A stretch of DNA of 44,626 bases from Amylibacter marinus (GTDB taxonomy: Bacteria; Pseudomonadota; Alphaproteobacteria; Rhodobacterales; Rhodobacteraceae), in NCBI RefSeq assembly GCF_030160015.1, contig NZ_BSNN01000005.1:1-44626 (forward strand), in the 5' to 3' direction. Below are positions 9,428 through 31,992 of this stretch, piece after piece. Numbering within the stretch: position 1 is the first letter of the stretch; each line of letters starts with the position of its first letter. The notes under the pieces are model-generated. The model did no database searches, was not told the DNA's origin, and worked only from the letters and a program-made list of their open reading frames with translations. Position numbers and translations under genes: made by a program.

Positions 9428-9483
9428 CCCCAACCCTAACCGCGAAATACCCCCGGTTACAAGTCGCCAAACCCCTCGCGCAC

Positions 9484-9509: not shown

Positions 9510-9514
9510 CCACC

Positions 9515-15134: not shown

Positions 15135-15266
15135 ATGGAATCCAAAGAACCAAAGAAAAAACAGTGGATCACCCCCACCCTAGAGGCGGATCTGATTGAC
15201 AAGGAAACCCATTCGGGTGCTCCTATTTTTTTCGGCCGAGAGGATGTGGTCTATCGGCCGTCCTAA
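15135..15266 (+). CDS. RiPP precursor peptide 1 (lasso-like)
   Basis: 43 residues. Leader KKKQWITPTL, then I-x3-T-x2-G; predicted core GAPIFFGREDVVYRPS starting at residue 28. Glu sits at position 9 of that core, which would allow a 9-residue macrolactam, and the C-terminus has Glu at -8, Tyr at -4, Ser at -1 as in all six paralogues. The ribosome site is weak (GTGAGAT). It is the first of three precursors in a row and lies divergent from bioB. Confidence 0.75.
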   Translation: MESKEPKKKQWITPTLEADLIDKETHSGAPIFFGREDVVYRPS

Positions 15267-15364
15267 GAACAGCCCCTCGCCCTCATATTAACCAATAGAC
15301 AAGTTAGTTTCGCATACCTCATGGCCACTATCCAGGGCTATCAACCCGAAAATTGGAATACCAA

Positions 15365-15508
15365 ATGAAACAAACCATCCGTCAAACCTCCGAGCCGCTG
15401 AAAAAACAATGGACAGAACCAAAGCTATCGCGCGACGAAATTGCCGATGAAACGGATGCCGGCCCGAAATACTATAAAGTTGAACTTGGCCTCTACCAAC
15501 CCTCTTAG
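15365..15508 (+). CDS. RiPP precursor peptide 2 (lasso-like)
   Basis: 47 residues. Leader motif KKQWTEPKL at residues 13-21, Thr30 followed by D-A-G; predicted core GPKYYKVELGLYQPS, with Glu at core position 8. C-terminal ExxxYxPS. The start has TTGGAATACCAA upstream, close to that of precursor 3. The DNA encoding the W-T-E-P-K-L stretch is nearly identical to that of precursor 3, a sign of recent duplication. Confidence 0.78.
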   Translation: MKQTIRQTSEPLKKQWTEPKLSRDEIADETDAGPKYYKVELGLYQPS

Positions 15509-15717
15509 ACACAGATTTTTTCACTCTCGGGCACCACTTATTTTAAAAATCGGCCATGGCTATTGTCAGGGCTCGCAATGCAAGTGTATGCAATGAAACG
15601 CAGCGCCGTCTCATAATCCCGCGGGGATATTTTGAAATTTTCGACATTGCGACCAGCGTCCTCAATATGTTAGCCATTGCTCAGTGAACAACCAATGACT
15701 GAACAATAGGAATTCCA

Positions 15718-15873
15718 ATGTCTGTGTCTAACCCGCTAGAAAACACATCACCAGATATCCAACAGAAAAAACAGTGGACAGAACCAAAGCTAAAATGCGA
15801 CAAAATCGCCCGTGAAACAGATTCCGGCCGAACCGTCGATGGTATTGAAACTCCCGTATACCGGGTCTCTTAA
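15718..15873 (+). CDS. RiPP precursor peptide 3 (lasso-like)
   Basis: 51 residues. Leader KKQWTEPKL at 17-25, Thr34-D-S-G; predicted core GRTVDGIETPVYRVS, Glu at core position 8, ending ExxxYxVS. Good ribosome site TAGGAATTCCA. A weak hairpin (15880-15886 GCGGGCA with 15897-15903 TGCCCGC) follows the stop. The core shares almost nothing with precursor 2 apart from the fixed Glu, Tyr and Ser, although the leaders are close. Confidence 0.78.
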   Translation: MSVSNPLENTSPDIQQKKQWTEPKLKCDKIARETDSGRTVDGIETPVYRVS

Positions 15874-15989
15874 CCAACCGCGGGCACCATTCATGCTGCC
15901 CGCGCGTTAACCAATTAACCAATATTTCACCACCATAGCGAGAATTTTGCTAACTGTGTTAACCAAAACAACACAGCGCGGAGTCTCGC

Positions 15990-17336
15990 ATGACCCTTAC
16001 CCTCAATGACCAAACCTACGTCCTGACCTTTCAGGATGATTTCGACACGGCCCGCATCTGGGATGGAATCGGAGATGGCGATATTTGGGCCACATCCTAT
16101 CGCCCACACCAAGATGACGCCCGCAATATCGCCGCAAATGGCGAGCTACAATACTATGTCGATCCCGACATGACGGATTTCGAAAACCCTATCGCATTCA
16201 ATAACGGCACTGCCCAAATCACCGCCACCCCGCTGACCCCCGCCCAATCCGCGCTGGCAAATGGCGCTGAATATTCCTCGGCAATTCTAACCAGCGAAAT
16301 GAGCTTTGGCTTTACCTATGGCTATATAGAAATGCGCGCTGATATCCCGGCACAAACAGGGTTCTGGAGCAGCCTCTGGTTGCTGCCCACCAGCGGCGAA
16401 TGGACATCAGAAATTGATATCTTTGAAATCAGGGGCGCAGAGGCGGGCACCATCCACACCAACTATTGGCAAGATCAGGGCGGCACCATGACCCCCGATG
16501 CAGATTACACCCAAAACACCGATGCAGGCGCAGGTTTTCATACCTATGGCCTGCTATGGACCGAGGATACCCTGCAATGGTTCTATGATGGCACCCTGAT
16601 CCGCGAGGCCTCGGTGACACTGGATCAGGAAATGCAGATCCTCTTGTCGCTGGCCGTTGGTGGGTTTGGCGGCGATACCGATGCCAGCACAGATTACACA
16701 GACCCCTACAGCATCGATTATATCCGCATCTACGAGCTGGAAAGCTCTGACACCCGTAATGATGCCCTAACCGGCGATTTCATCTCACATGATCTGAAAA
16801 ACGGCACCAATAACAGCGAGGAACTCTACGGCACCCGTTTTGACGATACGATCAAGGGGCGCAAAGGCGACGACACCCTCTATGGGCGCAGCGGCGCGGA
16901 TAAATTGCGCGGGAACAAGGGCGAGGATAGCCTATTTGGCGGGGATGGCGCGGATAATCTGGGCGGGGGTCAGGACAACGACCACCTGATTGGCGGCGCA
17001 GGCGCAGATACCCTAACGGGGGGCAAGGGCACAGATCACATGTGGGGGGGCGACTACGGCGCCGATGCTACCACCGATACCTTCGTGTTTTCCGCAGATT
17101 CTGGCACAGACTATATCCATGATTTCGAGAGCGACCATGATCTGGTGAAGCTGCGCCACTATGAAAACGGCAATTGGGATGATCTGCAACTGGCCCTGTC
17201 TGACCAAGGCTGGGCCGTGCAAATCGATCTGGCCAGCCTAGGCGGCACCACGGGCGATACGCTCTATCTGGTCGGCGCAAATATGGCCGACCTCAGCACA
17301 GATAACTTCATCTTCGTCGATCCTGTGCTAGGCTAG
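15990..17336 (+). CDS. Secreted GH16 glycoside hydrolase with RTX C-terminus
   Basis: 448 residues. Residues 10-250 form a GH16 jelly-roll with the catalytic motif EIDIFE (Glu141, Asp143, Glu146) and FWSSLWLLP. GH16 enzymes cut beta-1,3/1,4-glucans, agar-type galactans or bacterial exopolysaccharides; the exact substrate is open. Residues about 268-350 hold RTX calcium-binding repeats (GGDGADNLGGG, GGAGADTLTGG and similar) and then a serralysin-type tail (TDTFVFSADSGTDYIHDF). There is no signal peptide, as expected for type I secretion. Its exporter is not in the window. The start has GCGGAG upstream. Confidence 0.88.
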   Translation: MTLTLNDQTYVLTFQDDFDTARIWDGIGDGDIWATSYRPHQDDARNIAANGELQYYVDPDMTDFENPIAFNNGTAQITATPLTPAQSALANGAEYSSAILTSEMSFGFTYGYIEMRADIPAQTGFWSSLWLLPTSGEWTSEIDIFEIRGAEAGTIHTNYWQDQGGTMTPDADYTQNTDAGAGFHTYGLLWTEDTLQWFYDGTLIREASVTLDQEMQILLSLAVGGFGGDTDASTDYTDPYSIDYIRIYELESSDTRNDALTGDFISHDLKNGTNNSEELYGTRFDDTIKGRKGDDTLYGRSGADKLRGNKGEDSLFGGDGADNLGGGQDNDHLIGGAGADTLTGGKGTDHMWGGDYGADATTDTFVFSADSGTDYIHDFESDHDLVKLRHYENGNWDDLQLALSDQGWAVQIDLASLGGTTGDTLYLVGANMADLSTDNFIFVDPVLG

Positions 17337-17433
17337 CGCGCTACCCTGTCCATATGGCACACTGGCGCGAACACCCTATGGTCTTTGGGGCGGTGTCCCC
17401 TCCGTGGTAAAATAATGAAAATACCTTTTTATT

Positions 17434-17456
17434 TTGTGATTCACCCTATATCACAA
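17434..17456. promoter_or_regulatory. Inverted-repeat operator before the GntR gene
   Basis: TTGTGAT-N9-ATCACAA, perfect 7-base arms, 33 bases before the GntR start in an AT-rich stretch. The likely ligand is the GntR protein itself, controlling its own operon; a CRP-like protein is an alternative reading of TGTGA. Confidence 0.5.
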
Positions 17457-17488
17457 TATTTAAACCACGCGATCGGACCCCCGCCCCC

Positions 17489-18187
17489 ATGCCCGCCACC
17501 ACCATGCCCTCGCACAGCATCTATGAAAATCTGCGCAATCGCCTGATCACCGCAGAATTCCCCGGCGGGTTTCGGATGAAGCCCGACGAGCTGCGCGCGC
17601 CCTATGATTGCTCGGCCTCTACCATGCGAGAGGTGTTGTTTCGCCTGTCATGCGATGGGTTCCTAAATTTTATCGACCAACGCGGGTTTCACACCCCCAA
17701 CCCTAACCCCGAAAAAATGATAGAACTGGCCCAAATGCGCATCATGCTGGAACAGGCCGGCGCGCGCCATTCTATCGCCCATAGCACCCTAGAATGGGAG
17801 GCCCGCCTGACGGCCGCCCAACACAAGCTGGCCCATATAGAAACCGCCATGCAGACAGAAAAATCCGCCCGCGAACATGTTGGCATATGGACTGCCGCCG
17901 AACGTGAATTTCACATGACACTGGTATCCCTTAGCCCCAACAGCCTGTTAAAATCCACCCATGTGGATTTCTTCGACCGCTTTCGCCAATTGCTGGTGAT
18001 CAATAACATCCACGGTAATTTCGGCTATCGCGCCGGCAATATCACAGAACACAGCCAGATCGTGGATACCGCGCTATCCGGCGATGCCGATGCCTGTTGT
18101 GCCATGCTCAAACAACATGTGGAAAGCAGCATGATCGGCCTGCGCGGCCCCCACTCCTTAGATACCCAACCCAAGAGCCCCCAATGA
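17489..18187 (+). CDS. GntR-family (FadR/FCD) regulator of the sugar-acid operon
   Basis: 232 residues. N-terminal winged helix ([18 protein letters not shown], then [21 protein letters not shown]), C-terminal all-helical FCD domain with metal-ligand type His residues in EREFHMTL and EHSQIV. Its last codons overlap the start of the dehydratase gene (ATGA), so it is cotranscribed with the pathway it probably represses. A sugar acid or its 2-keto-3-deoxy product is the likely inducer. Confidence 0.85.
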
Positions 18188-19983
18188 CACAGAAGAAAAA
18201 GCCATCCGACCTGCGCTCGCGCCAATGGTTTAATAACCCAGAGGAATCCGAGCTTACGGCCATGTACCTAGAACGCTACATGAATTACGGCCTAACCCGC
18301 GAAGAGCTGGGCATGAAAAAACCCATCATCGCCATTGCCCAGACCGGATCTGACCTGTCTCCCTGTAACCGCCACCACCTAGAGCTGTCAAAACGCCTGC
18401 GCGATGGTATTATTTCCGCCGGTGGCACGGTGATGGAAATCCCCGTGCACCCAATCCAAGAAACCGGCAAGCGCCCCACCGCCACGCTGGATCGCAATCT
18501 GGCCTATCTGTCACTGGTCGAGAGCCTCTTTGGCTATCCCATCGATGGCGTGGTTCTGAATATTGGCTGTGATAAAACCACCCCCGCCCTTTTGATGGCG
18601 GCGGCCACGGTGAATATCCCCGCCATCGCCTTCTCTGTAGGGCCCATGCTGAACGGCTGGTTCAATGGCAAACGCACGGGATCAGGCACCATCGTCTGGA
18701 CGGCACGCGAAATGCTGGCGCGCGGCGAAATCGACGAGAGCGAACTGATCGACCTGATCGCATCCTCGGCCCCCAGCACAGGGTTTTGCAACACCATGGG
18801 CACCGCCAGCACCATGAATTCGCTGGCCGAGGCGCTGGGGATGCAATTGCCCGGCTCTGCCGCAATACCCGCCCCCTACCGCGAGCGCGGACAAATGGCC
18901 TATGCCACCGGCAAACGCATTGTTGATATGGTCTGGCAGGATCTGAAACCCAGCGATATCATGACCCGCAAATCCTTTGAAAACGCCATCGCCGTTAACA
19001 GCGCAATTGGCGGATCAACCAATGCCCCCATCCACCTAAATGCCATCGCCGCCCATCTGGGACTAGAGCTGAATAACCAAGATTGGCAGGACATCGGCTA
19101 TGACATCCCGCTGTTGGTTAACCTACAGCCCGCAGGCGAATACCTGGGCGAGGATTACCACCACGCGGGCGGCGTCCCTGCCGTGATCAATGAAATGATG
19201 GCCCATGATCTCTTGCCCCACCCAGATGCGGCCACGGTTAATGGCGCCAGCATCGGGGAAAACTGTGCCAACACCAAAATCACCAATACGGATGTGATCC
19301 GCCCGCTGGATAATCCCCTGCAACAAAAGGCGGGATTCATCCATATGACAGGCAATGTTTTTGACAGCGCAATTATGAAATCCAGCGTGATCTCTGCGGA
19401 TTTTCGCGCCCGCTACCTAGAAAACCCCGATGACCCCAATGCGCTACAGGGCACGGCCATTGTCTTTGACGGGCCAGAACACTTCCACCACAGCATCGAT
19501 GACCCTGCACTAAACATCACCGAAAACTCGATCCTGTTCATGCGCGGCACAGGCCCGTTGGGCTATCCCGGCGCTGCCGAGGTGGTGAACATGCGCCCGC
19601 CAAATTACCTGCTAAAGGCGGGCATAGACGCCCTGCCCTGTATCGGCGATGGCCGCCAATCGGGCACATCCGGCTCGCCCTCGATCCTAAATGCATCCCC
19701 CGAGGCCGCCGCTGGCGGGCCGCTGGCCATCATCCAAAACGGCGATCCCATTCGCATTGATCTGAACACAGGCGAGGTGCTGTTACAAATCCCGGATACC
19801 GAAATCGAGGCGCGGTTCGAAAAACTGGTGCGCGATGGCGGCTATCCGATTCCCGATAGCCAAACCCCATGGCAACAATATTTCCGCGCCCTCAGCGGCC
19901 CGCTATCTGATGGAATGCTGTTGCAAGATGCGCAAAACTATCAAAACATCGCCGCCAAATTCACCCCACGCCACAACCACTAA
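18184..19983 (+). CDS. IlvD/Edd-family sugar-acid dehydratase
   Basis: 599 residues from the ATG at 18184, which overlaps the regulator stop; an upstream start at 18097 is inside the regulator. The iron-sulfur cysteines are in [19 protein letters not shown] and [11 protein letters not shown]. The stretch [13 protein letters not shown] and the size place it with aldonate (arabonate/xylonate-type) dehydratases rather than with IlvD of valine synthesis. It would convert a sugar acid to its 2-keto-3-deoxy form. The partners downstream support this. Confidence 0.87.
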
Positions 19984-19992
19984 GGACATCCG

Positions 19993-20838
19993 ATGAAATT
20001 GCTTCGCTATGGCGCCGCTGGCGCAGAAAGACCCGGGCTACTGGATGACGATGGCCATATCCGCGACCTGTCGGATCACATATCCGATGTAAATGGCGCA
20101 GCCCTTGCCCGCGATAAATTGGCAGAACTGGCCGCCCTTGATCCCGCCACCCTGCCCCTGATCAGCGGCAACCCGCGCCTTGGGCCCTGTGTGGGTAATA
20201 TCGGCAAAATGCCCTGCATCGGGCTAAACTATTCCGATCACGCCGCCGAAACAGGCGCCGAAATCCCCAAACACCCGATCCTCTTTCACAAGGCCACATC
20301 GGCCATCAGCGGCCCAAACGATGATGTCTCGATGCCGCGCGGATCCACCCATACCGATTGGGAGGTAGAGCTGGGCGTGGTGATCGGCACGGCGGCTAAA
20401 TATGTATCCACAGAAGAGGCCTTGGATTATGTGGCCGGATACTGTGTGATCAATGATGTCTCAGAACGCCACTTCCAAACCCAGCTAACCGGTCAATGGA
20501 CCAAGGGGAAATCCTGCGATACCTTCGCGCCGACTGGCCCGTGGATGGTCACCGCAGACGAGATCGACGATGTGCAAAACCTCAGCATGCACCTAGATAT
20601 CAATGGCACCCGCCGCCAAACCGGCAATACCAGCACCATGATCTTTAGCGTGGCTGAAATCATCGCCCACCTCTCACAGCTGATGACATTGCACCCGGGC
20701 GATGTGATTTCCACAGGCACGCCACCGGGCGTAGGCATGGGCATGACCCCCCCCCAATATCTGGCCGTGGGCGATGAAATGAGCCTGTCGATCCAGGGCC
20801 TAGGCACCCAGACCCAACGCGTAACAATGGACACATAG
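19993..20838 (+). CDS. Fumarylacetoacetate-hydrolase-family protein (2,4-diketo-3-deoxy-sugar-acid hydrolase type)
   Basis: 281 residues. FAH fold with CIGLNYSDHAAE, the metal-binding Glu residues in DWEVELGVVIG, NDVSERHFQ, and the end motif GDVISTGTPPGVGMGM. The length and N-terminus (MKLLRYGAAGAERPGLLDDD) match proteins often labelled ureidoglycolate lyase, of which some are shown to cleave 2,4-diketo-3-deoxy-L-fuconate or -rhamnonate. Set beside a sugar-acid dehydratase and a dehydrogenase, that role is likely here. Ribosome site AAGGACAT; 9 bases after the dehydratase. Confidence 0.82.
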   Translation: MKLLRYGAAGAERPGLLDDDGHIRDLSDHISDVNGAALARDKLAELAALDPATLPLISGNPRLGPCVGNIGKMPCIGLNYSDHAAETGAEIPKHPILFHKATSAISGPNDDVSMPRGSTHTDWEVELGVVIGTAAKYVSTEEALDYVAGYCVINDVSERHFQTQLTGQWTKGKSCDTFAPTGPWMVTADEIDDVQNLSMHLDINGTRRQTGNTSTMIFSVAEIIAHLSQLMTLHPGDVISTGTPPGVGMGMTPPQYLAVGDEMSLSIQGLGTQTQRVTMDT

Positions 20839-20841
20839 CAC

Positions 20842-21804
20842 ATGACAAAACCGCATCTGTTCCTGATCGGCGGCGCAACCAAGCGGATGATTCAGGCGTT
20901 TAACCAGCATTTCACCCTGCACAGCCGCCGCGACATCGATGATATCGATGGCTTCTTGGCGGAAATGGGCGATAAAATCACCGCCGTGGCCACCAATGGC
21001 CATTCTGGGATCTCGGCAAAATACATGAATGCCTTCCCAAACCTACAGGTCATATCCTGTTATGGCGTAGGCTATGACGCAATTGATTGCGCGCCTGCGG
21101 TGGCGCGCGGCATTCAAATCAGCCACACCCCCGATGTGCTGAACATCGATGTGGCCAACCACGCCCTGTTGCTGTTGTTGGCCGCCAGCCGCAATTTGAT
21201 TGCCGAAGACACCCACGCCCGCAGCGGCCAATGGGCCAGCGCGGGCAATCTAGGCCTGTCGACCTCGATCACGGGCAAAACTGTGGGCATTATCGGGCTG
21301 GGGCGTATTGGGCTAGAAATCGCCCGAAAGCTGGCGGCGTTTGACTGTGATGTGGTCTATCACAACCGTCGCAAACGCGGGGACGTGGTGTATAAATACT
21401 ATGATGATCTCACCCAAATGGCCCGCGATTGCTGGGCCGTAATCGCCATTACACCAGGGGGGCAGGCCACCCAGCATCTGGTGGATGCGGATGTGATCAA
21501 TGCCATCGGCCCACAGGGTATTTTTGTAAATGTGGCGCGCGGGTCTGTGGTGGATCAGCCTGCGCTGATAGCGGCGCTGACAGATGGGCGTCTGGGCTTT
21601 GCCGCGCTGGATGTGTTCGCGGCCGAACCAGAAATACCCGACGCCCTATCGGCCCTGCCCAATACCATCCTAACCTCCCATATCGCCAGCGCCACCCATG
21701 AAACCCGCACTGCGATGGGGGATCTGATGGTGGAAAACCTGCTGGAATTTTTCGCCACCGGATCGGTAAAAACCCCCGTTCCAGAATGCGCGCACCTGTG
21801 CTGA
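20842..21804 (+). CDS. D-isomer-specific 2-hydroxyacid dehydrogenase
   Basis: 320 residues. Nucleotide-binding motif VGIIGLGRIGLEIA and catalytic residues Arg (VNVARGSVVDQ), Glu (FAAEPEIP) and His (TSHIASATHE). It probably reduces glyoxylate, hydroxypyruvate or another 2-keto acid released by the pathway, or oxidises the deoxy sugar acid. It starts 3 bases after the hydrolase stop. Its last 85 bases are duplicated at 22088-22172. Confidence 0.87.
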   Translation: MTKPHLFLIGGATKRMIQAFNQHFTLHSRRDIDDIDGFLAEMGDKITAVATNGHSGISAKYMNAFPNLQVISCYGVGYDAIDCAPAVARGIQISHTPDVLNIDVANHALLLLLAASRNLIAEDTHARSGQWASAGNLGLSTSITGKTVGIIGLGRIGLEIARKLAAFDCDVVYHNRRKRGDVVYKYYDDLTQMARDCWAVIAITPGGQATQHLVDADVINAIGPQGIFVNVARGSVVDQPALIAALTDGRLGFAALDVFAAEPEIPDALSALPNTILTSHIASATHETRTAMGDLMVENLLEFFATGSVKTPVPECAHLC

Positions 21805-21805
21805 T
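21721..21805 (+). repeat. Dehydrogenase 3' end, original copy of an 85-base duplication
   Basis: Matches 22088-22172 at 82 of 85 bases. This is the intact gene end and includes the stop codon. Confidence 0.9.
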
Positions 21806-21879
21806 TGACCGACCCAAAAGCTACATTGAAATTAACGAAAGATTTTGGTAAATCGCCACAACACATTAAGGAGCGCAAA

Positions 21880-22038
21880 ATGCAATCGACTAAAAAAACC
21901 GAAGATCATAAAAAAGCATGGGCCGCGCCCAACCTTTACGAAGAGCAACACCAGCGCTCCGCGAAAATTGGTGATGTAACAGAATCGGGCACTGAGCCAG
22001 GAGTGGGTAGTGAGGGTATGATCTACAGCCTATCCTAA
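21880..22038 (+). CDS. RiPP precursor peptide 4 (lasso-like, long leader)
   Basis: 52 residues. HKKAWAAPNL at residues 10-19, then QRSAKIGDVT and E-S-G; predicted core GTEPGVGSEGMIYSLS with Glu at core position 9 and the ExxxYxLS end. Ribosome site AAGGAGCG. It shares with precursor 6 a leader six residues longer than the others (the QRSAK stretch), and the two are recent paralogues. A frame extending to 21805 is unlikely. Confidence 0.77.
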   Translation: MQSTKKTEDHKKAWAAPNLYEEQHQRSAKIGDVTESGTEPGVGSEGMIYSLS

Positions 22039-22092
22039 AGCGCCTAATCGGTCACATAACCGCGCTATGATCCACATTTACATGTGCGATCT
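22036..22092. pseudogene. Duplicated 3' tail of the sulfotransferase gene
   Basis: Aligns with 22684-22756, the region from the precursor-6 stop into the end of the minus-strand sulfotransferase. It lacks 16 bases that lie between two CATA repeats in the original. It ends at GATCT, where it joins the dehydrogenase fragment. No coding function. Confidence 0.8.
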
Positions 22093-22172
22093 GATGGTGG
22101 AAAGCCTGCTGGAATTTTTCGCCACAGGGTCGGTAAAAACCCCCGTTCCAGAATGCGCGCACCTGTGCTGAT
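22088..22172 (+). pseudogene. Duplicated 3' end of the 2-hydroxyacid dehydrogenase gene
   Basis: 82 of 85 bases match 21721-21805. It holds only the last 28 codons, including the stop. It is the second half of a duplication scar; the remaining 157 bases up to precursor 5 are AT-rich leader sequence with nothing I recognise. Confidence 0.88.
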
Positions 22173-22329
22173 GGGCTCGGTGCATGAGGCATTGAAAATC
22201 ATTCTTGAATTGGTTAATATCTGTTAATCTTTTTAAGAGGCCGCAACCGTCACCTGACCAGACAGACTCTCGGATATTTAAAACACAAAGCCAAATTCAC
22301 CTACTATGGGTCGCCCTAGGAAAATAAAC

Positions 22330-22470
22330 ATGACACACAAAGATACACAACAAGCTAAAAAAGACTGGACCGCGCCAGAACTGATCGTCGACGATCTAGC
22401 CGAAAACACTGATGCGGGCTTATTTGAAAACCCCAAGAGACCAGAGGGCACCTTTTACAACCCATCCTAA
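22330..22470 (+). CDS. RiPP precursor peptide 5 (lasso-like)
   Basis: 46 residues. KKDWTAPEL at 10-18, Thr27-D-A-G; predicted core GLFENPKRPEGTFYNPS. The fixed Glu (-8 from the end) falls at core position 10, one more than known lasso rings allow; a Glu at position 4 is too close. C-terminus ExxxYxPS. Upstream CTAGGAAAATAAAC. Confidence 0.75.
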   Translation: MTHKDTQQAKKDWTAPELIVDDLAENTDAGLFENPKRPEGTFYNPS

Positions 22471-22542
22471 TCTGATCAGAACTTGGCGAAATTTCTTTCG
22501 ACCAAATGATCATTCTAAACACCAAACTTCAGGAACCCCAAA

Positions 22543-22686
22543 ATGCCAGACACGACAACCAAGAAAAAATGGATTGCACCCGAACTACACGAAGCACAGC
22601 GTCAGCGCTCCGCCAAAATTGGCGATGTAACACAAGCTGGGGGATATACCTCCACCTTTGAAGGTGGTATCTACCGCCCTTCCTAA
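22543..22686 (+). CDS. RiPP precursor peptide 6 (lasso-like, long leader)
   Basis: 47 residues. KKKWIAPEL at 7-15, QRSAKIGDVT then Q-A-G; predicted core GGYTSTFEGGIYRPS with Glu at core position 8. Ends ExxxYxPS. Ribosome site CAGGAACCCC. Its stop is 5 bases from the end of the convergent sulfotransferase gene. Closest paralogue is precursor 4. Confidence 0.78.
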   Translation: MPDTTTKKKWIAPELHEAQRQRSAKIGDVTQAGGYTSTFEGGIYRPS

Positions 22687-22691
22687 GGCCC

Positions 22692-23522
22692 CTAATCGGT
22701 CGCATATCCAAAACGGCGCATAACCGCGCCATGATCCGCATTTATCTGTGCGATCTCTGCATCTGATAGCTCTGCGCGGTAATCCCGCGCCGCGCCCTTG
22801 GCAAAAAACCCGTTCTTCGCAAAATTCATCTCGCTAAAACCCGACGCCGCCTCTTGGCGTTGTAGGCGATCAAAGGCGCAATACTCTGCCGCCTGTGCTA
22901 TGCGATCCGCATCCACATCCCGCCCAAGCGCGGCAACAATGCGGGCGAAATTACCCACCGGATCAGCCAGCAAATCCTCGTAGCGCACCACCGTCACAGG
23001 AATATCACGCTGATCAACCCAGCTGGTCACATTCTCGCTCCATGTGCCAATCTGCTGTGGTAACAGATGATGCCCAAACTCTATGCGCCCGCTTAGACGA
23101 AACAGCGGCCGGTTCATTACCTTGATCGTGCGCCTGATCTCAAATCCCAAATGATTGGCAAAACTGGGCGCCACATTCAAAGGGTTGCGGATCAAATACA
23201 CCACACCGCGCACGCTATCACACGGAAACACCGCACGGCCATTGGGGGCGATGCGCTGAATGTCGTGCACCTTGGCGGCAAATTCATCACTATTATCGGC
23301 AATATAGTCGCGGCAAAAATCCGCGCGTAAATTGTCCAAGGCCCCCATGCTCAAATCCGCAGAATTCACCCCGACCGCCTCGTCAAAATCCGCGCGCAGA
23401 ATAAACGGCTGCTTCAGCGTCAGCTGGTTGATATTCATATCCCCCGCATCGGAGAGGTAATGCGTTAACATGCTACGCACCCAAGTATTGCCTGACTTGG
23501 GATATGACGCCAGTAGAATCAT
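22692..23522 (-). CDS. Sulfotransferase of the RiPP locus
   Basis: 276 residues. The PAPS 5'-phosphosulfate loop is LLASYPKSGNTWVRSML at residues 3-19, and YLIRNPLNVAPSFANHLG (about 109-126) matches the 3'-phosphate motif of the PF00685 fold. It is encoded by overlapping ATGA with the kinase gene. In this setting it most likely sulfates the peptide, with the invariant Tyr at -4 or a hydroxylated residue as candidate acceptor. That is inference: similar enzymes also sulfate sugars. Confidence 0.85.
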   Translation of the reverse strand: MILLASYPKSGNTWVRSMLTHYLSDAGDMNINQLTLKQPFILRADFDEAVGVNSADLSMGALDNLRADFCRDYIADNSDEFAAKVHDIQRIAPNGRAVFPCDSVRGVVYLIRNPLNVAPSFANHLGFEIRRTIKVMNRPLFRLSGRIEFGHHLLPQQIGTWSENVTSWVDQRDIPVTVVRYEDLLADPVGNFARIVAALGRDVDADRIAQAAEYCAFDRLQRQEAASGFSEMNFAKNGFFAKGAARDYRAELSDAEIAQINADHGAVMRRFGYATD

Positions 23523-24415
23523 AGCCCCAGCTCTGTGTAGATCAGCTCATTAACCTCGTCGATCGTGCTCCCCTCGCGCGGGCGCGAAATCACCATGGTC
23601 TTGGCCTGTTTGGTCAAAACAGATCCCAGCCTGAATTGCGCAGACAACATCCCCAGACCCTTTAGAAAATTTGACCGAAAGGTAAATTTCAATATCCACG
23701 GCATTGCATCCTTGGCGCTCAGTGTTTCGATCGACAGCGGCGCATCCTGTTGCGCAAGTTGCAACAAAAATAGATTGGATACCCTGATTGGCCCGCTGTG
23801 CAATTCCGATACCGGCAAATTGTATTTGGGCACGCTGGCCTGCACCAATTCTCGATTCATCGGCGCCACATCATAATGTTGCGCCGCCGCTTCGGTTAGG
23901 CGATTGCGCCCAAAGGCGGGCACCGCAACCAAGGCACCCTGATCATCTAGCTTCAGCGCCGTGATATCATCCGACAGCATCTTATACCCGCGCTTGCGAA
24001 ACCCCGCCAAGGTGGTGGATTTGCCGTATCCCGACTTGCCGGATATCAACACCGCCCCTGCTGGCGTGGCCACAGAACTGGCATGCAGCGTTAAAAACCC
24101 GCGCATCTGTAACAAGGCCGCCACCGCAGAGCTCAGCAAAATCACCCGCAGATCATCCCCCCCAGCCCCAGCCTCTGGCGCCACAGTGATGCGCGCGCCA
24201 TCCTCTACCAAATAACGGCCCACACCTTCAAAAATACTTAGGAATGCGCCGCGCTTGGCCTGCCAATTGGCCCGCTCATGGGTGGCACCAGATAGCCGCT
24301 CTGGCACCGCACCAATGCCTATGGTCACATCCACTGTGCGCGCCTCTACGATCTGAAATTCTGGGATTTCAATTTCCGAGGCAATCACCAAACCAAATGC
24401 AAGATACGTATTCAT
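23519..24415 (-). CDS. HPr-kinase-related kinase, candidate C-terminal Ser kinase of the peptide
   Basis: 298 residues from the ATG at 24415; a longer frame from 24454 has a poor ribosome site and an unfamiliar N-terminus. HPr kinase-like core: LTLHASSV (His111), P-loop SGKSGYGKST (125-134) and LSDDITAL (Asp149, Asp150), in the same order and spacing as in HPr kinases. Relatives in lasso clusters (the ThcoK type of paeninodin) phosphorylate the C-terminal Ser of the precursor; all seven precursors here end in Ser. It is read away from precursor 7, from a shared intergenic region. Confidence 0.85.
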   Translation of the reverse strand: MNTYLAFGLVIASEIEIPEFQIVEARTVDVTIGIGAVPERLSGATHERANWQAKRGAFLSIFEGVGRYLVEDGARITVAPEAGAGGDDLRVILLSSAVAALLQMRGFLTLHASSVATPAGAVLISGKSGYGKSTTLAGFRKRGYKMLSDDITALKLDDQGALVAVPAFGRNRLTEAAAQHYDVAPMNRELVQASVPKYNLPVSELHSGPIRVSNLFLLQLAQQDAPLSIETLSAKDAMPWILKFTFRSNFLKGLGMLSAQFRLGSVLTKQAKTMVISRPREGSTIDEVNELIYTELGL

Positions 24416-24559
24416 AGCTGTCCAATTTTTGCGATATTTTCCCCCATTCCCCACGGGGTTTCAATTGCTTTTGCTGGCGGGGCAAAAATATTTCTTGCCT
24501 TGGCCCAACCACAGGTCTATTTACATGTTTAGGTTGTATTTACATAGATTGGAACACCC

Positions 24560-24703
24560 ATGAAGCCCCAAAATACCGAAGCCGAGAAAAAGCAATGGTC
24601 AACCCCAAAGCTGAAAACCGGCAATGTACCACAGCTGACCGATGCAGCGGTCTATCCCGGCACCAGACCAGCCCCAGAGCTTACGAACTACACCCCCTCC
24701 TAA
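24560..24703 (+). CDS. RiPP precursor peptide 7 (lasso-like, Ala core start)
   Basis: 47 residues. EKKQWSTPKL at 9-18, then V-P-Q-L-T-D-A; predicted core AVYPGTRPAPELTNYTPS. Ala replaces the usual Gly and the fixed Glu falls at core position 11. C-terminus ExxxYxPS. Upstream ATTGGAACACCC. It sits between the kinase and cyclase genes, and its stop overlaps the convergent stop of the cyclase gene. Confidence 0.75.
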   Translation: MKPQNTEAEKKQWSTPKLKTGNVPQLTDAAVYPGTRPAPELTNYTPS

Positions 24704-26451
24704 GGGCGCGATTGCAGGATTAAAGCCAAGGCATTGCTGATCTTGCCGAACTGGGTCTTTTGCCCCGCTACCTGATCTTTCAAACCCTGCCTTAGGCGAT
24801 CCATATCCAAAAATGCGGCGCGCGCGGGATCAAACGCGCCCGCATCAAGACGCGCCAGAAATTCTGGCGCAATTTCACGCCCAGCACGGGCCGAATCATC
24901 GAATCGCGCCGGCTCTTCCTTGTCATTGCGCAGGCGCAATTTATCCACCAGTATCCCGCTGGTCGCCAGACGGATCACATTGCGGCGCAGGCCGGTTTCT
25001 GATGTAAACAAATGTGGCGGCAACCCCAAAACAAAGCTCACCAATCGCTGATCCAATAGCGGATAAGCAAACTGCACCCTTTGATCCGCAAAATACGAAG
25101 ACCAGCTGCGCATGCGTTCCTGTATCCCGCCAAGGGTCAGGCGCAGGATTTGACGCCGCCGCGCCGTGCCATCACGTAGCCCCGGCATGGCCTGCTCTTG
25201 GGCGCGAAACTGTGCCAAATATGAGGGGGTCAAAAAGCTGTTGTTGCCCCGCTCTGATCGGCGCGAAAATAGCGCCCTTGGCGCATGGCGCAGGCTTCGC
25301 ATCCAGCCGGGAACACGCCCGCGCCATTTGCTGCGCCCGGGGTTAGATATCACCTCATCTCCGCCCCATCCCGATAAAACCAGCCGCGGCGCATCATCTT
25401 TTAGCGCGCGCTGAGCACCAATTTCTAATAACAGCGTCGAGGTCGAATTACCAACGCAGGGATCCAGCGCGAAAAACGCCTCTTGGTCACAGGCCTTGAT
25501 CCCCGCCCAGCTCAAATCCACATCATAGGTTTGGGCGGCTAGGGCGCAATATGCGTGATCCGGCCCGCGCTGATCAGGGGTATCCGCATCCGGCAGCCAA
25601 GAGACCCCAATGGGCCGTTTTAGCCCCTGCTGTTTGGCATATGGCCCAGCAATGGCCGCCACCGCAGAGCTGTCTAACCCACCAGAAATATGCAGCGCCA
25701 ATTGGATATCATGGGGCACACGTTGCTGAACCGACAAGCGCAGCAGATCCTGTAGTTCTGAAATCAGCTCAGCATCAGATTTCCCGCGCTGAACCGGCGC
25801 ATCATTTGGGTGCCAATAGGGGGTGACCTTAGCCCCCTGCCCTGCGTGAAATTCAACGTATTCGCCCATATGCAATGATCGGATTTCATCAATTATTTCG
25901 CGGCGCGGATCGCTGGTATTGGCCCCATGTAGGAAATCCAATACCTTGGGCGTGTACAGGCAATCGCGATCCACGCAATGGGGCAACAAATCGGCGATAG
26001 CACTGGCAAAATACACCGCATTTCCTTGATCCAGATAAAACAGGGGCCGCGTGCCCAGATGATCTGAAATCAGCAACAACCTCTGGGCAATATTATCCCA
26101 GATCACAATGGCAAAATCCCCCGCCAGTGCTGGCAAAAACCCCAAGCCCTCGCCATAGGCCTGGGCCACCAGTTGCGCCTGATTGGCGCCGCGTAAATCC
26201 GCATCAGACAGATCAGGCCAATGGCAGATGCGACCAAATACGGCCACCAACAGCTCTTGGCCCTTGGCACGGTGCAGGTGGGTGAAAACCTGCCCCATAT
26301 CCACCAGCGCGGGATTGGTCACCAGCCGACAGCCCCCCAGCATCAGCCCATCGCCGCCCTGTGCATCGCCTGCGCCAAACACCAGCGCGCCGGATATCGC
26401 CGCGCTATGCACGAACCGGTGCCATAATTGATTGATACCCGAAATGCGCAA
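24700..26451 (-). CDS. Asparagine-synthetase-like macrolactam (lasso) cyclase
   Basis: 583 residues from the TTG at 26451. A GTG at 26412, which overlaps the upstream stop, would give 570 residues; neither has a clear ribosome site. The N-terminal half is a glutaminase-like fold without the catalytic Cys2, so it cannot use glutamine. The C-terminal half has the ATP-pyrophosphatase motif HISGGLDSSA (254-263) and VLSGWGGDEVISN. This combination is that of lasso cyclases (McjC type), which adenylate an Asp/Glu side chain so that residue 1 can attack it. The invariant Glu of the precursors is the obvious target. Confidence 0.85.
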   Translation of the reverse strand: MRISGINQLWHRFVHSAAISGALVFGAGDAQGGDGLMLGGCRLVTNPALVDMGQVFTHLHRAKGQELLVAVFGRICHWPDLSDADLRGANQAQLVAQAYGEGLGFLPALAGDFAIVIWDNIAQRLLLISDHLGTRPLFYLDQGNAVYFASAIADLLPHCVDRDCLYTPKVLDFLHGANTSDPRREIIDEIRSLHMGEYVEFHAGQGAKVTPYWHPNDAPVQRGKSDAELISELQDLLRLSVQQRVPHDIQLALHISGGLDSSAVAAIAGPYAKQQGLKRPIGVSWLPDADTPDQRGPDHAYCALAAQTYDVDLSWAGIKACDQEAFFALDPCVGNSTSTLLLEIGAQRALKDDAPRLVLSGWGGDEVISNPGRSKWRGRVPGWMRSLRHAPRALFSRRSERGNNSFLTPSYLAQFRAQEQAMPGLRDGTARRRQILRLTLGGIQERMRSWSSYFADQRVQFAYPLLDQRLVSFVLGLPPHLFTSETGLRRNVIRLATSGILVDKLRLRNDKEEPARFDDSARAGREIAPEFLARLDAGAFDPARAAFLDMDRLRQGLKDQVAGQKTQFGKISNALALILQSRP

Positions 26452-28075
26452 TCAGATCGTGGTCAAAGACCTCATTTGCGACCTCTAGCTGTTGCGGCGT
26501 TAGCGCACCTATCTGATCCGCATTCATATTGCGCAGGCGCTCGGAATAGCGCCCCTTGATAAACAGGGTCTGATCCAAATCCAAATCATCCAGCTCTGGT
26601 ACAAAATCCATAATGCGCGCGGCCACTTGATCAGGCATGGCGCACATCTCTTCGTAGGTAAAGAATACGCTCTTGTCCTTAAACAGGGCTTGGTTTTTGC
26701 GCTGCAGATCAAAACAGCGCATCACATGGATCGCGGCCACACGTAGGTTATGAACATAATTCGGCCCCTGATCTAGGGCGGCACGGCGGCGCACGATGCC
26801 CTCATACATGGCATAGGGGTTGCGAATCATCATCAAGAATTTTGCATTATCAAAATGCCTATCAAGACTTTGGGCATAGGCGATAAAGGGCGGGGCCTTG
26901 GTAAAAAACACGCTGGCATCGATGCTGTCGGCCGTGGCCTGAAAATACCAAACCTTTTGGTTGTGGGGCCAATTAAAATTGCTGGCATCACGGTACTCGG
27001 CAAAACCTGCGTCCTCGCCCGCCCAGATCAGCTGGCCGTTCACGCGGGTATTTGGCCCCTTGAATCCCAGCATGTGCTGGCCCTCGCGGTACAAATCCCA
27101 AACATGACGGCTGGTGCCGATGGCCTTGGACAGGAACGTCGAACCGCTGTTATTGGGGCACAATAGAAACAGATGGGTTTTGATAAGTTCGCGGCGCAAA
27201 TGCTGGGCACCATTGAATTTTTTATACCCCAGCGCCTCTTGGGTGCGTACATAATGCGCGCGCCATGCCCGGTAACCATAGATCACTGCCGCTTCTCCGG
27301 CGGCATCAAAATCCTTGGCCCACGGCTTTTGCAGGCAATTGAAATGAAACACCTTCACATCCGACAACGCGCCCTGATATTTGGCCTGTGTATCCCCCAC
27401 ATGGCCCAACAGGAAATTGTACTCGACCCCCAGCATCTCTTGGCGGCCCTCTAGCACAATATTTAGAACCGCCTGATCATGCAGGCGCACACCGCCCTCT
27501 TGCCAAAAATCATCCGATAGGAAATCCAACAATCGCCCATAGGTTTCAGGGGTGCGCAGCGCAGACCCAATCATCACAAACCCAGAATTAAACGTATCGC
27601 GCAAGACCCCCTCGGGGGCATCTATTGGTGCCTCATTACAGGTGGTTCGACTGCGGCCATTGCCGCGCAAATTCGGCCCATCAGGGGCCACTAATAAATC
27701 AGCCTCGCGCGCAAACACATCACGCAGGTCAGCGCAAATCAGCAGATCGCTATCGCAGAACAACACCCGATCATACCCATACAATCCAAAGGCCTGAAGC
27801 GCGCTAAACATCACCCTGCGCCGCGGGTTCTCGATCTGGGCCTTGGTTAAGGCCGCGCGATATTCGTCATCCAGGCCCCGCACCGTTATGCGCTTGTCCA
27901 GGCGCTCTAACATCTTCACAGAGGCCGGCAGGATATCATCGCCCAGCACCAGAATATCGCCCTGATACCACGCATTGTGTTCTAGGAAACTGGCAATCAT
28001 CGTCAGGCAACCAGGCATAAATGCCTCGTTGCATACGGTCACCAAACAGTGACCCCCGCAGATATCTTCGCTCAT
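26405..28075 (-). CDS. GT8 glycosyltransferase - sulfotransferase fusion
   Basis: 556 residues. Residues 8-290 are a family-8 glycosyltransferase: DSD metal motif at 108-110 (VLFCDSDLLIC), LHDQAVLN at 198-205, and HFNCLQKPW at 244-252. Residues about 300-550 resemble a sulfotransferase, with the loop LLCPNNSGSTFLSKAIG (304-320) and MIRNPYAMYEGIVRRR as the second phosphate motif. The fusion suggests that a sugar is added and then sulfated, or that both act on one peptide. The ATG overlaps the PqqD-like stop, and its own 3' end overlaps the cyclase gene, so it is part of the operon. Confidence 0.82.
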   Translation of the reverse strand: MSEDICGGHCLVTVCNEAFMPGCLTMIASFLEHNAWYQGDILVLGDDILPASVKMLERLDKRITVRGLDDEYRAALTKAQIENPRRRVMFSALQAFGLYGYDRVLFCDSDLLICADLRDVFAREADLLVAPDGPNLRGNGRSRTTCNEAPIDAPEGVLRDTFNSGFVMIGSALRTPETYGRLLDFLSDDFWQEGGVRLHDQAVLNIVLEGRQEMLGVEYNFLLGHVGDTQAKYQGALSDVKVFHFNCLQKPWAKDFDAAGEAAVIYGYRAWRAHYVRTQEALGYKKFNGAQHLRRELIKTHLFLLCPNNSGSTFLSKAIGTSRHVWDLYREGQHMLGFKGPNTRVNGQLIWAGEDAGFAEYRDASNFNWPHNQKVWYFQATADSIDASVFFTKAPPFIAYAQSLDRHFDNAKFLMMIRNPYAMYEGIVRRRAALDQGPNYVHNLRVAAIHVMRCFDLQRKNQALFKDKSVFFTYEEMCAMPDQVAARIMDFVPELDDLDLDQTLFIKGRYSERLRNMNADQIGALTPQQLEVANEVFDHDLIAHFGYQSIMAPVRA

Positions 28076-28353
28076 GTCAGCGCAACAACCTCGGCATCCG
28101 CCATCTGCCCAATAAAGGCAACGACATCGCGCCGACAGCTCTCTGCATCGATATCATAGGCCCCCAATAATTTGGCCTCAAGCTCGCCCAATGTCTTGGG
28201 GCCTTGCTCTAGCATCTCCCAGATATCCGCAGAAACCCCCGCAAGGCTGTAATAGGCCCCGCTCTCGATATCCATCATCACAAATTCGCCGTCCAACTCG
28301 GTGGCCAATACGGCCTCGTTCTTGGTGATACAGGTGGTCTCGGTAATGTCCAT
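28072..28353 (-). CDS. PqqD-like RiPP recognition (RRE/B1) protein
   Basis: 93 residues. PqqD family pattern: the central GAYYSLAGVSADIWEMLEQG, then TLGELEAKLLGAYDID and the end DVVAFIGQMADAEVV. PqqD-like proteins bind the leader of the precursor and present it to the enzymes. The KKxWxxPxL leader motif here is a plausible ligand. The start lies directly after the oxygenase stop (TAAATG). Confidence 0.88.
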   Translation of the reverse strand: MDITETTCITKNEAVLATELDGEFVMMDIESGAYYSLAGVSADIWEMLEQGPKTLGELEAKLLGAYDIDAESCRRDVVAFIGQMADAEVVALT

Positions 28354-28950
28354 TTATACGCCCTCTTTCACGCGCTCATGCGCGCCTTCAAATACTTCGA
28401 AAATCAAATGAATGCGCGCCTCATCGCCCGCATTCCAAACCCCGTGGGATTTGATGTTGTTCACCTCATAGGCCTGACCCTTTTCCAAATGCCGATCCAC
28501 ACCATCCACATGAAAGGTCGCCCCCGCATTGGTCTGAAGTGGGACATGGATTTTATGGCAATGCAGATTAGACCCTGCGCCATCCGTATGGGGATCGATG
28601 CCATAGCCACCCTGTAGCCGCGCCAACATCACCTTGGGGAATTCGGGTTTTTCAAATCCATAGGGTTTGATCACACTGTCCAAAACAGGTTGGATCAGCC
28701 CCTGCCACGCTGGCCATAATTGCCGCGCATAAGACGAGCGATGATCCGCGTTGCGATGAATGAACCGAAAGACCAAATGATCGGTATGATGAAAACAGGC
28801 AAAGTTGTTTTCCTTCTCGGCGTTTTCGCGCGCCCAAACCGCCTCGGAAACCTTGCCGACCATAGCGACCAATCGGTCGATATCCACTGCGCCCAGATCT
28901 CGGAATCGTTCTGGCTTTTCAATTGGGATCAGATTCTCAATTGGTTGCAT
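28354..28950 (-). CDS. Asp/Asn beta-hydroxylase-like iron(II)/2-oxoglutarate oxygenase
   Basis: 198 residues. The jelly-roll iron ligands read H121-T-D123 (GGYGIDPHTDGAGSNLHCHK) and His169 (NNIKSHGVWN), and Arg179 (EARIHLIF) would bind 2-oxoglutarate; this is the order in aspartyl/asparaginyl hydroxylases. In the operon it would hydroxylate a precursor residue. It is the first modification gene after the XRE regulator, 36 bases away. Confidence 0.85.
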   Translation of the reverse strand: MQPIENLIPIEKPERFRDLGAVDIDRLVAMVGKVSEAVWARENAEKENNFACFHHTDHLVFRFIHRNADHRSSYARQLWPAWQGLIQPVLDSVIKPYGFEKPEFPKVMLARLQGGYGIDPHTDGAGSNLHCHKIHVPLQTNAGATFHVDGVDRHLEKGQAYEVNNIKSHGVWNAGDEARIHLIFEVFEGAHERVKEGV

Positions 28951-29547: not shown

Positions 29548-30648
29548 TCAGTCTAGCTGATCCAACAGCCGGCGCACCGCATCTTCTAGACGTAGGCGAT
29601 CCACGGTGGAAAAATCCCGCGCCAGCCGCACCTCTAATCTGCCCGATGATGCGGTGCATTTCGCCGTGCCCTCGGGGCGCGAGATTTGAAAGGTGGTCTT
29701 GGCTTGGCGCGGGCCTTTGTCCTTGCGCGCCTTGGTCTCGGGTGTGGGTGCCTCTTCGTCCACCTCGCCCACATAGGCGCGCAGCACCGCCAGCTCGTCT
29801 GCCACGCTGCGGTTGACCAGCGGCGCTAGGTCGCGCTTGATGGCGCCCGCAATGCCCGCCTCTTCGTCCATACGCGCCTGTAGGCCCAGACCTAAACTGC
29901 GGGGAATATATTGCGGGTATTCCAGATCCGATCCCAGCTCTTGCAACAGCTTCACAAAGCCGCGGATATAGCTGCGCTTTTGATAGGATGCCGCCTTGAA
30001 CAGGATCGCCACAGATTTATCCGCCGTCTCGCCAATGGTGTTGGGATCGGCCGCATAGGATATGGCCAGTGCCGCCATCTCGGCAAAGCTGATATCCTTG
30101 CGCACCAAATTCTCGTCGACCATTTTGCGATACAGGCTCTCGATGCTTTCGCCCTCTTGCACAATCCCCGCGGGGATATGGCCGAAACGCGCGCTATCGC
30201 CGGTCTCTTCCAACAGCTCGCGGTAGGCGCTAAGGCGACGAAAGCCCTGGATCAATTCATAGCGCCCGTCGCTGCGCGCCTCGACCTGGATCGGGTTTGA
30301 CAGGCCGATTTCGGCGATGGATGCCTTTAGCTCGTCCAGTTCGTAATCCTTGCCCACCGCACGGTCGCGGGTCAGCTTGTAGGTTTCGACATCCGTCACG
30401 GGGATGCGGTCTAGCACCAGACCCGCCTTCTTCAGCGCCACGAAATTCTGTGCCAAGGCGTCGTTCTCGGCGCGGATCTCGGCCTCGATGGCCGCGCGCT
30501 CTTTCAGGCTGGCCGAGGTTTCATTAATGGCGGTGGCCATGGGGCCGCGGCGTGCGGGCATGGCGGATTTTGTCTCGGGGGCCGCGGGGGATTCCGTGGC
30601 GGCCATATCTGGCATGTCTATGTCGAACATGCGGCGTTTCTTGCTCAT
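29548..30648 (-). CDS. parB: Plasmid partition protein ParB
   Basis: 366 residues. ParB/Spo0J N-domain with IGLSNPIQVEARSDGRYELI, then QGFRRLSAYREL (the GERR position reads GFRR) and ENLVRKDISFAEMA. A central helix-turn-helix and a C-terminal basic domain follow. It binds parS and works with ParA. The start overlaps the parA stop (ATGA). Confidence 0.92.
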   Translation of the reverse strand: MSKKRRMFDIDMPDMAATESPAAPETKSAMPARRGPMATAINETSASLKERAAIEAEIRAENDALAQNFVALKKAGLVLDRIPVTDVETYKLTRDRAVGKDYELDELKASIAEIGLSNPIQVEARSDGRYELIQGFRRLSAYRELLEETGDSARFGHIPAGIVQEGESIESLYRKMVDENLVRKDISFAEMAALAISYAADPNTIGETADKSVAILFKAASYQKRSYIRGFVKLLQELGSDLEYPQYIPRSLGLGLQARMDEEAGIAGAIKRDLAPLVNRSVADELAVLRAYVGEVDEEAPTPETKARKDKGPRQAKTTFQISRPEGTAKCTASSGRLEVRLARDFSTVDRLRLEDAVRRLLDQLD

Positions 30649-31952: not shown

Positions 31953-31992
31953 AGTATGGTTTCCTGTAGGACGTTAATTCTGCGTTTTCTTC

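Follow-up and report, generated by a model that had tools for sequence, protein, structure and literature searches.

The contig NZ_BSNN01000005.1 of Amylibacter marinus (44,626 bases; analysed whole and called the window, or C5, below) is one of 14 contigs in a genome of 2.72 Mb, and carries seven short precursor genes, designated P1 to P7, beside genes for a PqqD-type RiPP recognition element (RRE, B1), a macrolactam cyclase, a kinase and several tailoring enzymes. We consider it likely, with a probability of about 0.6, that these genes belong to a multi-precursor, RRE-guided pathway for lasso-type macrolactam peptides of the ribosomally synthesised and post-translationally modified class (RiPPs), and that this pathway is split over two replicons: the leader peptidase (B2) and the ATP-binding cassette (ABC) exporter missing from the window are both present on another contig, C7.

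The seven genes and their enzymes are real and not due to chance. A pattern composed after inspection of the seven precursors, KKxWxxPxL...Txx[GA]...ExxxYxxS (at the end), was found in 7 of the window's 2618 stop-to-stop frames, and 100 dinucleotide-preserving shuffles gave no match. The leader part alone likewise gave 7 matches in the window against 0 in the shuffles, and its tail part alone 7 against 2 across all 100.

Seven precursors and their enzymes in the window

The initial annotation, made from the sequence alone, had proposed seven precursor genes, and all seven open reading frames (ORFs) are present, all on the plus strand (Table 1). Nine columns are invariant among them (K, K, W, P, L, T, E, Y and S). 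Every leader contains WxxPxL as a putative RRE-binding motif, and every precursor has Thr at position -2 and ends in Glu-x3-Tyr-x-[PLV]-Ser, a tail absent from the initial annotation. The distance from Trp to Thr is 20 residues in P4 and P6, and 14 in the other five. The segment between Thr and Glu differs in length and sequence from precursor to precursor, between a constant leader motif and a constant tail motif, so that a single set of enzymes would yield a small library of products. Two pairs look like duplicates at the nucleotide level: the leader DNA of P2 and P3 is 83% identical over 65 nt, and P4 and P6 share 74% in the leader (80 nt) and 78% in the tail (51 nt); between the leader and tail stretches of these pairs no repeat was detected.

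A profile of the seven precursors, run against 385 genomes of the class, gave strong matches in their own genome only (seven, with E-values of 3.1e-15 or better) and weak ones in 7 other genomes (5.5e-4 to 0.009), which fell in a short frame in G298 and in frames of over 400 aa in the remaining genomes. The short frame, a lone WxxP precursor-like ORF (L034 9392-9613, G298:C11, ...WATPGVIKSMVERNTDSGSGPLSDGHTAS), was set aside: no RiPP enzyme was detected by our own hidden Markov models (HMMs) in the 19 kb examined.

The enzymes listed earlier (PqqD-like protein, cyclase without Cys at position 2, kinase, two sulfotransferase domains, GT8 and oxygenase) were recovered with Pfam. One of the two sulfotransferase domains is fused to the GT8 domain, a point new to this analysis; in another genome of the family, G154, the corresponding parts are two separate genes. 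The best NCBIfam match of the cyclase was the lasso cyclase model NF033535 (E 3.1e-35), at 121.8 of 525 bits and thus far under the cut-off. The AlphaFold model of the kinase (mean pLDDT, the predicted local distance difference test, 90.1) points to an HPrK/PEPCK-type fold: PEPCK chains lead its matches in the PDB (E 2.4e-9), with no HPrK chain among the best 50 matches listed. HPrK and PEPCK share a fold. A signal-peptidase domain was found in none of the 30 window proteins scanned.

Table 1. Precursor genes, enzyme genes and repeat copies in the window (cores are counted from the second residue after the invariant Thr, T+2)
Feature	Position	Strand	Details
P1	15135..15266	+	43 aa; core SGAPIFFGREDVVYRPS; tail Glu at core 10
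P2	15365..15508	+	47 aa; core AGPKYYKVELGLYQPS; tail Glu at core 9, sole acid
P3	15718..15873	+	51 aa; core SGRTVDGIETPVYRVS; tail Glu at core 9
P4	21880..22038	+	52 aa; core SGTEPGVGSEGMIYSLS; tail Glu at core 10
P5	22330..22470	+	46 aa; core AGLFENPKRPEGTFYNPS; tail Glu at core 11; start is the ATG preceded by AGGAAA, chosen by eye (alternative start 22306, 54 aa)
P6	22543..22686	+	47 aa; core AGGYTSTFEGGIYRPS; tail Glu at core 9, sole acid
P7	24560..24703	+	47 aa; core AAVYPGTRPAPELTNYTPS; tail Glu at core 12, sole acid
Sulfotransferase	22692..23522	-	PF00685 5.9e-17; 38% to G154 homologue
HPrK/PEPCK-type peptide kinase	23519..24454	-	HPr-kinase-like Pfam 2.1e-5, under the Pfam cut-off; His124, Lys145, Asp162, Asp163
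Asn-synthetase-like macrolactam cyclase (C)	24700..26412	-	PF00733 5.8e-21; SGGLDSS motif; no Cys at position 2; start GTG at 26412 chosen by us (longest ORF begins at 26451)
GT8 fused to second sulfotransferase domain	26405..28075	-	Pfam 9.9e-14 (GT8), 1.2e-8 (sulfotransferase)
PqqD-type RRE (B1)	28072..28353	-	PF05402 1.3e-18; best PDB match PbaB1 9x90, 7.6e-11
Asp/Asn beta-hydroxylase-like oxygenase	28354..28950	-	PF05118 4.5e-14; 51% to G154 homologue
Second copy of dehydrogenase gene 3' end	22082..22172	+	91 nt, 95% to 21715-21805; scar beside P4
Second copy, part of sulfotransferase gene 3' end	22055..22092	+	38 nt, 89% to 22719-22756; behind P4

Peptidase and exporter genes on other contigs

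No B2 (PF13471) was found in the window; two exceeded the cut-off elsewhere in the genome, on C7 and C2. The plasmid locus also has no exporter and no nucleotidyltransferase, and the absence of B2 and exporter had been overlooked earlier. The first B2 lies at C7:33931 on a 70.8-kb contig resembling, by eye, a polysaccharide locus, with an ABC transporter gene next after it and an NTP_transf_5 gene 3.7 kb beyond that. The C7 genes are open reading frames, and the B2 retains the Cys and His common to 14 aligned B2s. PqqD had no match on C7 at E 0.1, and no credible remnant of PqqD, cyclase or kinase was found by tblastn in 57 of the 70.8 kb (best 0.005). The plasmid pathway is probably completed in trans by these C7 genes.

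The second B2 (C2:277040) is part of a complete YxxP lasso cluster on the 1.24-Mb contig C2, which comprises PqqD, two 2-oxoglutarate (2OG) oxygenases, B2, cyclase, three precursors, an HPrK-like kinase, a sulfotransferase and a sulfatase-family protein. The three precursors of this cluster (L008 6618-14403, G000:C2) are similar to one another and end in PSSYTAS. This B2 could serve the plasmid precursors as well, the B2, ABC transporter and nucleotidyltransferase of C7 then being relics of a decayed lasso locus, and the completeness of the C2 cluster speaks for such an arrangement, as does the lack on C7 of the PqqD, cyclase and kinase present in a relative of the same genus, G120. We nevertheless regard it as unlikely. 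The C7 genes are open, with the B2 residues noted above intact; the C2 precursors have YxxP leaders; and the plasmid PqqD is nearer to the PqqDs of G154 (9e-26), G041 (5e-22) and G120 (8e-18), each of which shares its locus with a B2 of the C7 or G154 type, than to the PqqD of C2 (5e-9).

The relatives show which genes go together. G120 has NTP_transf_5, ABC transporter, B2, PqqD, an Asn_synthase-type cyclase and a kinase-like gene in one locus, with identities to C7 of 50% (B2), 53% (ABC transporter) and 38% (NTP_transf_5); its PqqD has the plasmid PqqD as best match (8e-18) and none to the C2 PqqD at 1e-5. G154 combines in one locus NTP_transf_5 (4.4e-44), PqqD, GT8, sulfotransferase, B2, kinase, a further sulfotransferase, a hydroxylase-like gene and an ABC transporter, so that C5 and C7 together equal its gene set. 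Identities to the window are 45% for PqqD, 32% for GT8, 33% for the kinase, 38% for the sulfotransferase, 51% for the hydroxylase-like protein and 43% between the separate sulfotransferase and the second half of the GT8 fusion. The related cyclase of G154 (30%) is on a separate contig, and its precursor (E 1.4e-5; tail EDAVYFPS) is apart from both.

Two further genomes are divided in other ways. Plasmid CP131057.1 of UR115 carries cyclase, PqqD, sulfotransferase, kinase and a WxxP precursor together, its sole B2 being about 224 kb off, and in G004 the precursor shares a contig with the cyclase, PqqD, B2 and kinase being together on a second one. All three genomes (G154, G004 and UR115) thus resemble A. 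marinus in having WxxP precursors and a cyclase, PqqD, kinase and B2 dispersed over contigs or about 224 kb; the partition differs in each, and G154 is closest in sequence to the window. Three tandem WxxP precursor-like ORFs were also seen in G004 (L128 8615-9403) on C509, a contig distinct from those with the cyclase and with PqqD and B2. A single match to the paeninodin model NF033524 in the 295 genomes of the family, under the cut-off, pointed to G004. With the cyclase by itself as query, 2 of the family genomes matched, own genome included, at a strict threshold that missed the G120 cyclase itself; plasmids gave one record, and genome contigs 13 stretches with no relative among them.

Another possible explanation for the missing B2 is that none is needed, the leader being removed by a housekeeping protease or cyclisation proceeding without a dedicated peptidase. 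The window, with no B2, agrees with this, and pseudomycoidin, going by the title of a paper, forms in vivo with neither leader nor leader peptidase. We hold this to be quite improbable, as all 16 genomes tested that have related cyclase loci without B2 (see below) keep a B2 outside the stretch examined, though B2 exceeds the cut-off in 22 of the 295 family genomes (up to 14 candidates scored per genome), and as the Thr and the residues after it are conserved in P1 to P7. Eight of the 16 are records titled 'chromosome: 1', in which the distance to B2 is 457 kb to 3.4 Mb for six loci.

Several points count against completion of the pathway by the C7 genes, one being that the B2 of the C2 cluster could take their place for the plasmid precursors. 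The figure of 22 in 295 may be low, given the number of candidates scored per genome; for L118 and L067 the B2 lies merely 9 and 14 kb beyond the stretch examined, and in two of the remaining eight genomes it adjoins another cyclase (L144, L146). The precursor-like ORF of the G120 locus is, by eye, of the YxxP type, so this B2 lineage is not known to act on WxxP precursors. The NTP_transf_5 proteins of C7 and G154, both matching PF14907, have no mutual BLASTP match at 1e-3.

The cyclase family, the precursor tail and ring size

A profile of three aligned cyclases retrieved at least 525 relatives from genome contigs, and the family counts given here cover the best 80 of them (L043-L122). Enzyme presence at these loci was judged by our own HMMs, built from few seeds; short contigs can hide genes, and near-copies were counted separately (L043/L048/L052; L047/L050/L055/L058; L061/L065). 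The related cyclases are 24-33% identical to that of the window (best segment), and their hosts include Sphingopyxis, Pontixanthobacter, Pseudomonadales and Acidobacteria, among others. Within the stretches examined, an HPrK-like gene accompanies 67 of the 80, PqqD 44, a sulfotransferase 40 and a hydroxylase-like gene 28; B2 is present in 36, as against none at the window locus. A GT8-sulfotransferase profile had 110 matches, fusions and single domains taken together. Many relatives share the WxxP leader and the E-x3-Y tail. A leader-model search of the 80 loci, the window, L035 and four further loci returned 111 unique precursor-like peptides, 99 of them with a C-terminal Ser; that all 111 have Trp in the leader is a biased count, since the model was seeded with 17 Trp leaders. 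The system, with its WxxP leaders and kinase, is a member of a lasso-type family found in many, mostly proteobacterial, genomes and not a new class, and the recurrence of kinase, sulfotransferase and hydroxylase-like genes beside related cyclases had gone unnoticed earlier.

Gammaproteobacterial 'chromosome 1' records (OY282353.1, OY282455.1, OY282519.1 and others; within L054-L121) contain several related cyclase loci spread across megabases. OY282353.1 has at least six, none with PqqD or B2 in the stretch, and one B2 genome-wide; among 30 scattered loci in eight such records, B2 was found in 2 stretches and PqqD in 5. These scattered loci may represent a hub-and-spoke lasso layout.

The association of the tail with tailoring genes was explored (Fisher's test) at the 37 loci with cyclase, PqqD and precursor, window included. 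The tail [ED]x3[YF]x2-4 occurs at 21 of 28 loci with a sulfotransferase and at none of 9 without (p = 9.2e-5), and at 17 of the 18 loci that have a hydroxylase-like gene, compared with 4 of the 19 that lack it (p = 6.7e-6). Tyr stands within the last eight residues at 22 of 28 loci with the sulfotransferase and at 3 of the 9 others (p = 0.036), and at all 18 loci with the hydroxylase-like gene and 7 of the 19 others (p = 3.7e-5). This suggests that the tail is where the sulfotransferase and hydroxylase-like enzymes work. The most likely sulfotransferase target is the tail Tyr. PadeK is described as acting on the C-terminal Ser (PMC9266682), and by analogy the kinase here may target the same residue. 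The strength of the association is reduced by the fact that it was sought after the precursors had been inspected, with statistics that ignore relatedness, and by six of the 28 sulfotransferase loci (L035, L086, L087, L115, L117 and L122) having no Tyr in the last eight residues.

The tail Glu keeps register with Tyr and Ser and not with the core start, another feature missed at first. Among the 43 peptides with both landmarks, the distance from Thr to the acid is 10 in 14, 11 in 16, 12 in 11, and 13 and 14 in one each. At loci without sulfotransferase an acid stands at core 7-9 in all 10 peptides and at core 9 in nine; with sulfotransferase it stands at core 7-9 in 26 of 50 after hand correction of L094 and L115 (24 of 50 by pattern), a count that left out 34 peptides and in which the pattern misread some rows. 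As a core 7-9 acid is less frequent at the sulfotransferase loci, the acid there tends to keep register with the tail.

If the tail Glu closes the ring, the seven rings would have 9, 9, 9, 10, 10, 11 and 12 residues. Lasso rings are described as having 7-9 residues, and one analogue with a ring of ten is reported to have been made in vitro (PMC8498205). An acid at core 7-9 is present in P2, P3 and P6; P1, P4, P5 and P7 have none, and a textbook lasso ring does not fit these four. Either, then, there are natural rings of 10 to 12 residues, or Glu serves for recognition, and part of the products stay linear or are closed in some other way. Variable cleavage that always gives a nine-residue ring was considered and rejected: it would suit a Thr-to-acid distance of 11 (Gly at T+3 in 15 of 16 peptides, counted by eye), but would need residues such as Pro, Thr or Leu as residue 1 at distance 12, and Tyr at distance 13.

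The second option, in which the invariant Glu is part of a recognition motif for the sulfotransferase or hydroxylase and the products are linear, phosphorylated and sulfated, or closed elsewhere, would explain why Glu is fixed relative to Tyr and Ser, and why all nine loci without sulfotransferase lack the tail motif; linear polyphosphorylated peptides (LPPs), to which such products would bear some likeness, are reported to be made with an RRE and an HPrK-like kinase and no cyclase (PMC13381572). We think it rather improbable, given the cyclase gene at the plasmid locus, the tail Glu as sole core acid in P2, P6 and P7, and the acid at core 9 in most peptides from loci without sulfotransferase, so that this cyclase family usually comes with an acid at ring distance. 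The broader proposal is that, in a widespread lasso-type family with sulfotransferase and Asp/Asn-hydroxylase-like enzymes, ring closure takes its register from the Glu-x3-Tyr-x-x-Ser tail and not from the N-terminus, so that one cyclase would make natural rings of 9 to 12 residues, with peptidase and exporter supplied in trans from another replicon; it is put forward tentatively and is open to considerable doubt.

Gene content, conservation, co-occurrence and the placing of B2 and the ABC transporter on C7 instead of in the window are observed; the chemistry, the modified residues, the action in trans and any threading we infer. In the split lasso-type pathway that we prefer, the plasmid PqqD would bind KKxWxxPxL of each leader and, with the precursor held, the HPrK-like kinase would phosphorylate the C-terminal Ser; the sulfotransferase(s) and the Asp/Asn-hydroxylase-like enzyme would work on the Glu-x3-Tyr-x-x-Ser tail, with Tyr as the most likely site of sulfation, and the GT8 part may add a sugar somewhere on the peptide. 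The B2 cysteine peptidase encoded on C7 would cleave one residue past the invariant Thr, the core starting at T+2, and the Asn-synthetase-like cyclase would link the new N-terminus to the invariant tail Glu. Export would fall to the C7 ABC transporter, perhaps once the phosphate had been acted on by the nucleotidyltransferase-like protein of C7.

Known systems and replicon setting

Of the system as first described, the lasso-like, RRE-guided, multi-precursor RiPP with kinase, sulfotransferase, GT8 and Asp/Asn-hydroxylase-like genes stands, and the two supposed oddities of its leader do not. Trp is reported to occupy the place of Tyr almost without exception in paeninodin-like leaders, whose RREs have a pocket favouring Trp (PMC13381572), and the extra residue after Thr was dropped as a new leader feature, since T-x-[SAG]-G is common among the relatives found. 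The nearest solved relative of the plasmid PqqD is the WxxP-type RRE PbaB1 (Table 1), and that of the C2-cluster PqqD is TbiB1 (3e-8; PbaB1 2.1e-4), the three C2 precursors having Y-x-A-P-T-L leaders. Less favourably for a Trp-type pocket, the plasmid RRE, mapped by hand, carries Ser and Asp in place of E75 and Q79, the Trp-contacting residues of PbaB1, and Asp at that position is what Tyr-type RREs are reported to use; E75 and Q79 are described as not strongly conserved (PMC13381572).

The paeninodin type (PadeA/PadeK, PbaA/PbaB1; Bacillota) shares with the plasmid system the WxxPxL leader, a discrete PqqD RRE, the C-terminal Ser, an Asn-synthetase-like cyclase and an HPrK-like kinase with His-Lys-Asp-Asp, a motif described for the paeninodin family (PMC9266682). 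Sulfotransferase and nucleotidyltransferase genes have been noted in Firmicute lasso clusters (PMC8498205). Unlike the paeninodin type, the plasmid locus has no B2, transporter or nucleotidyltransferase, adds the hydroxylase-like gene and the GT8-sulfotransferase, and has seven precursors, a tail-registered acid and a host outside Bacillota; its precursors do not reach the NCBIfam paeninodin model NF033524 (P1 12.4 bits against a cut-off of 27, no match for the other six). The paeninodin core begins Ala-Gly. The Bsf type of Bradymonas (PMC10368454) is described with a kinase, split B1/B2, cyclase and Gram-negative hosts, as here, and with B1 helping phosphorylation; it differs in its YxxPxL leader, Ile at -2 and phosphorylation of Ser3. 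LPP systems, as described in PMC13381572, share the RRE, HPrK-like kinase, MsbA-like exporter and NTP transferase, and are set in capsule loci, C7 being polysaccharide-like by eye; they differ in an SpI-type peptidase, a YxxP leader and the absence of the cyclase that the plasmid has. Because four of the seven precursors have no acid at the textbook ring distance and the locus has no B2, we describe the system as one that would work in the manner of a lasso pathway, without classing all seven genes as encoding lasso precursors. Among the titles listed by searches of an open-licence library, none concerned this lasso-type family or a lasso pathway split over replicons.

The earlier view of the contig as a Roseobacter-type plasmid held up. 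ParB (Pfam), ParA and a DnaA N-terminal-domain protein are encoded at 29548-33264, and 303 plasmid records match part of the C5 region, none of them over 80% of its length, with Pseudosulfitobacter, Phaeobacter and Paracoccus as the genera most often represented; by this evidence C5 looks like a Rhodobacteraceae-type plasmid. Other cargo includes biotin genes, an imelysin and di-haem peroxidase pair and a tripartite ATP-independent periplasmic (TRAP) transporter (2067-10908 and 33845-36657). GH16 and sugar-acid catabolism genes occupy 15990-21804, flanked by P1-P3 and P4-P6, so the precursors are dispersed around unrelated genes, and the span of 15135-28950 given in the initial annotation takes in these sugar-catabolism genes. 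Both repeat pieces near P4 (Table 1) are scars of duplication. Promoter-like patterns (15 found, 14.3 expected) and terminator-like patterns (17 found, 16.2 expected) were at chance level, and a typed repeat pattern had no match.

The plasmid locus is a real and apparently multiply tailored lasso-type system, and hints at rings larger than those known. P7 has one core acid, at position 12, and offers a clean natural test for lasso-type rings larger than nine, and the split over replicons makes the sharing of one protease between pathways testable by simple deletions. The presence of a Tyr-leader and a Trp-leader pathway in one genome could serve to test, outside Bacillota, the Tyr/Trp discrimination reported within them. 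If the proposed reading is true, many members of this family would be missed or mispredicted by RiPP mining that insists on a B2 next to the cyclase and on an acid at core 7-9.

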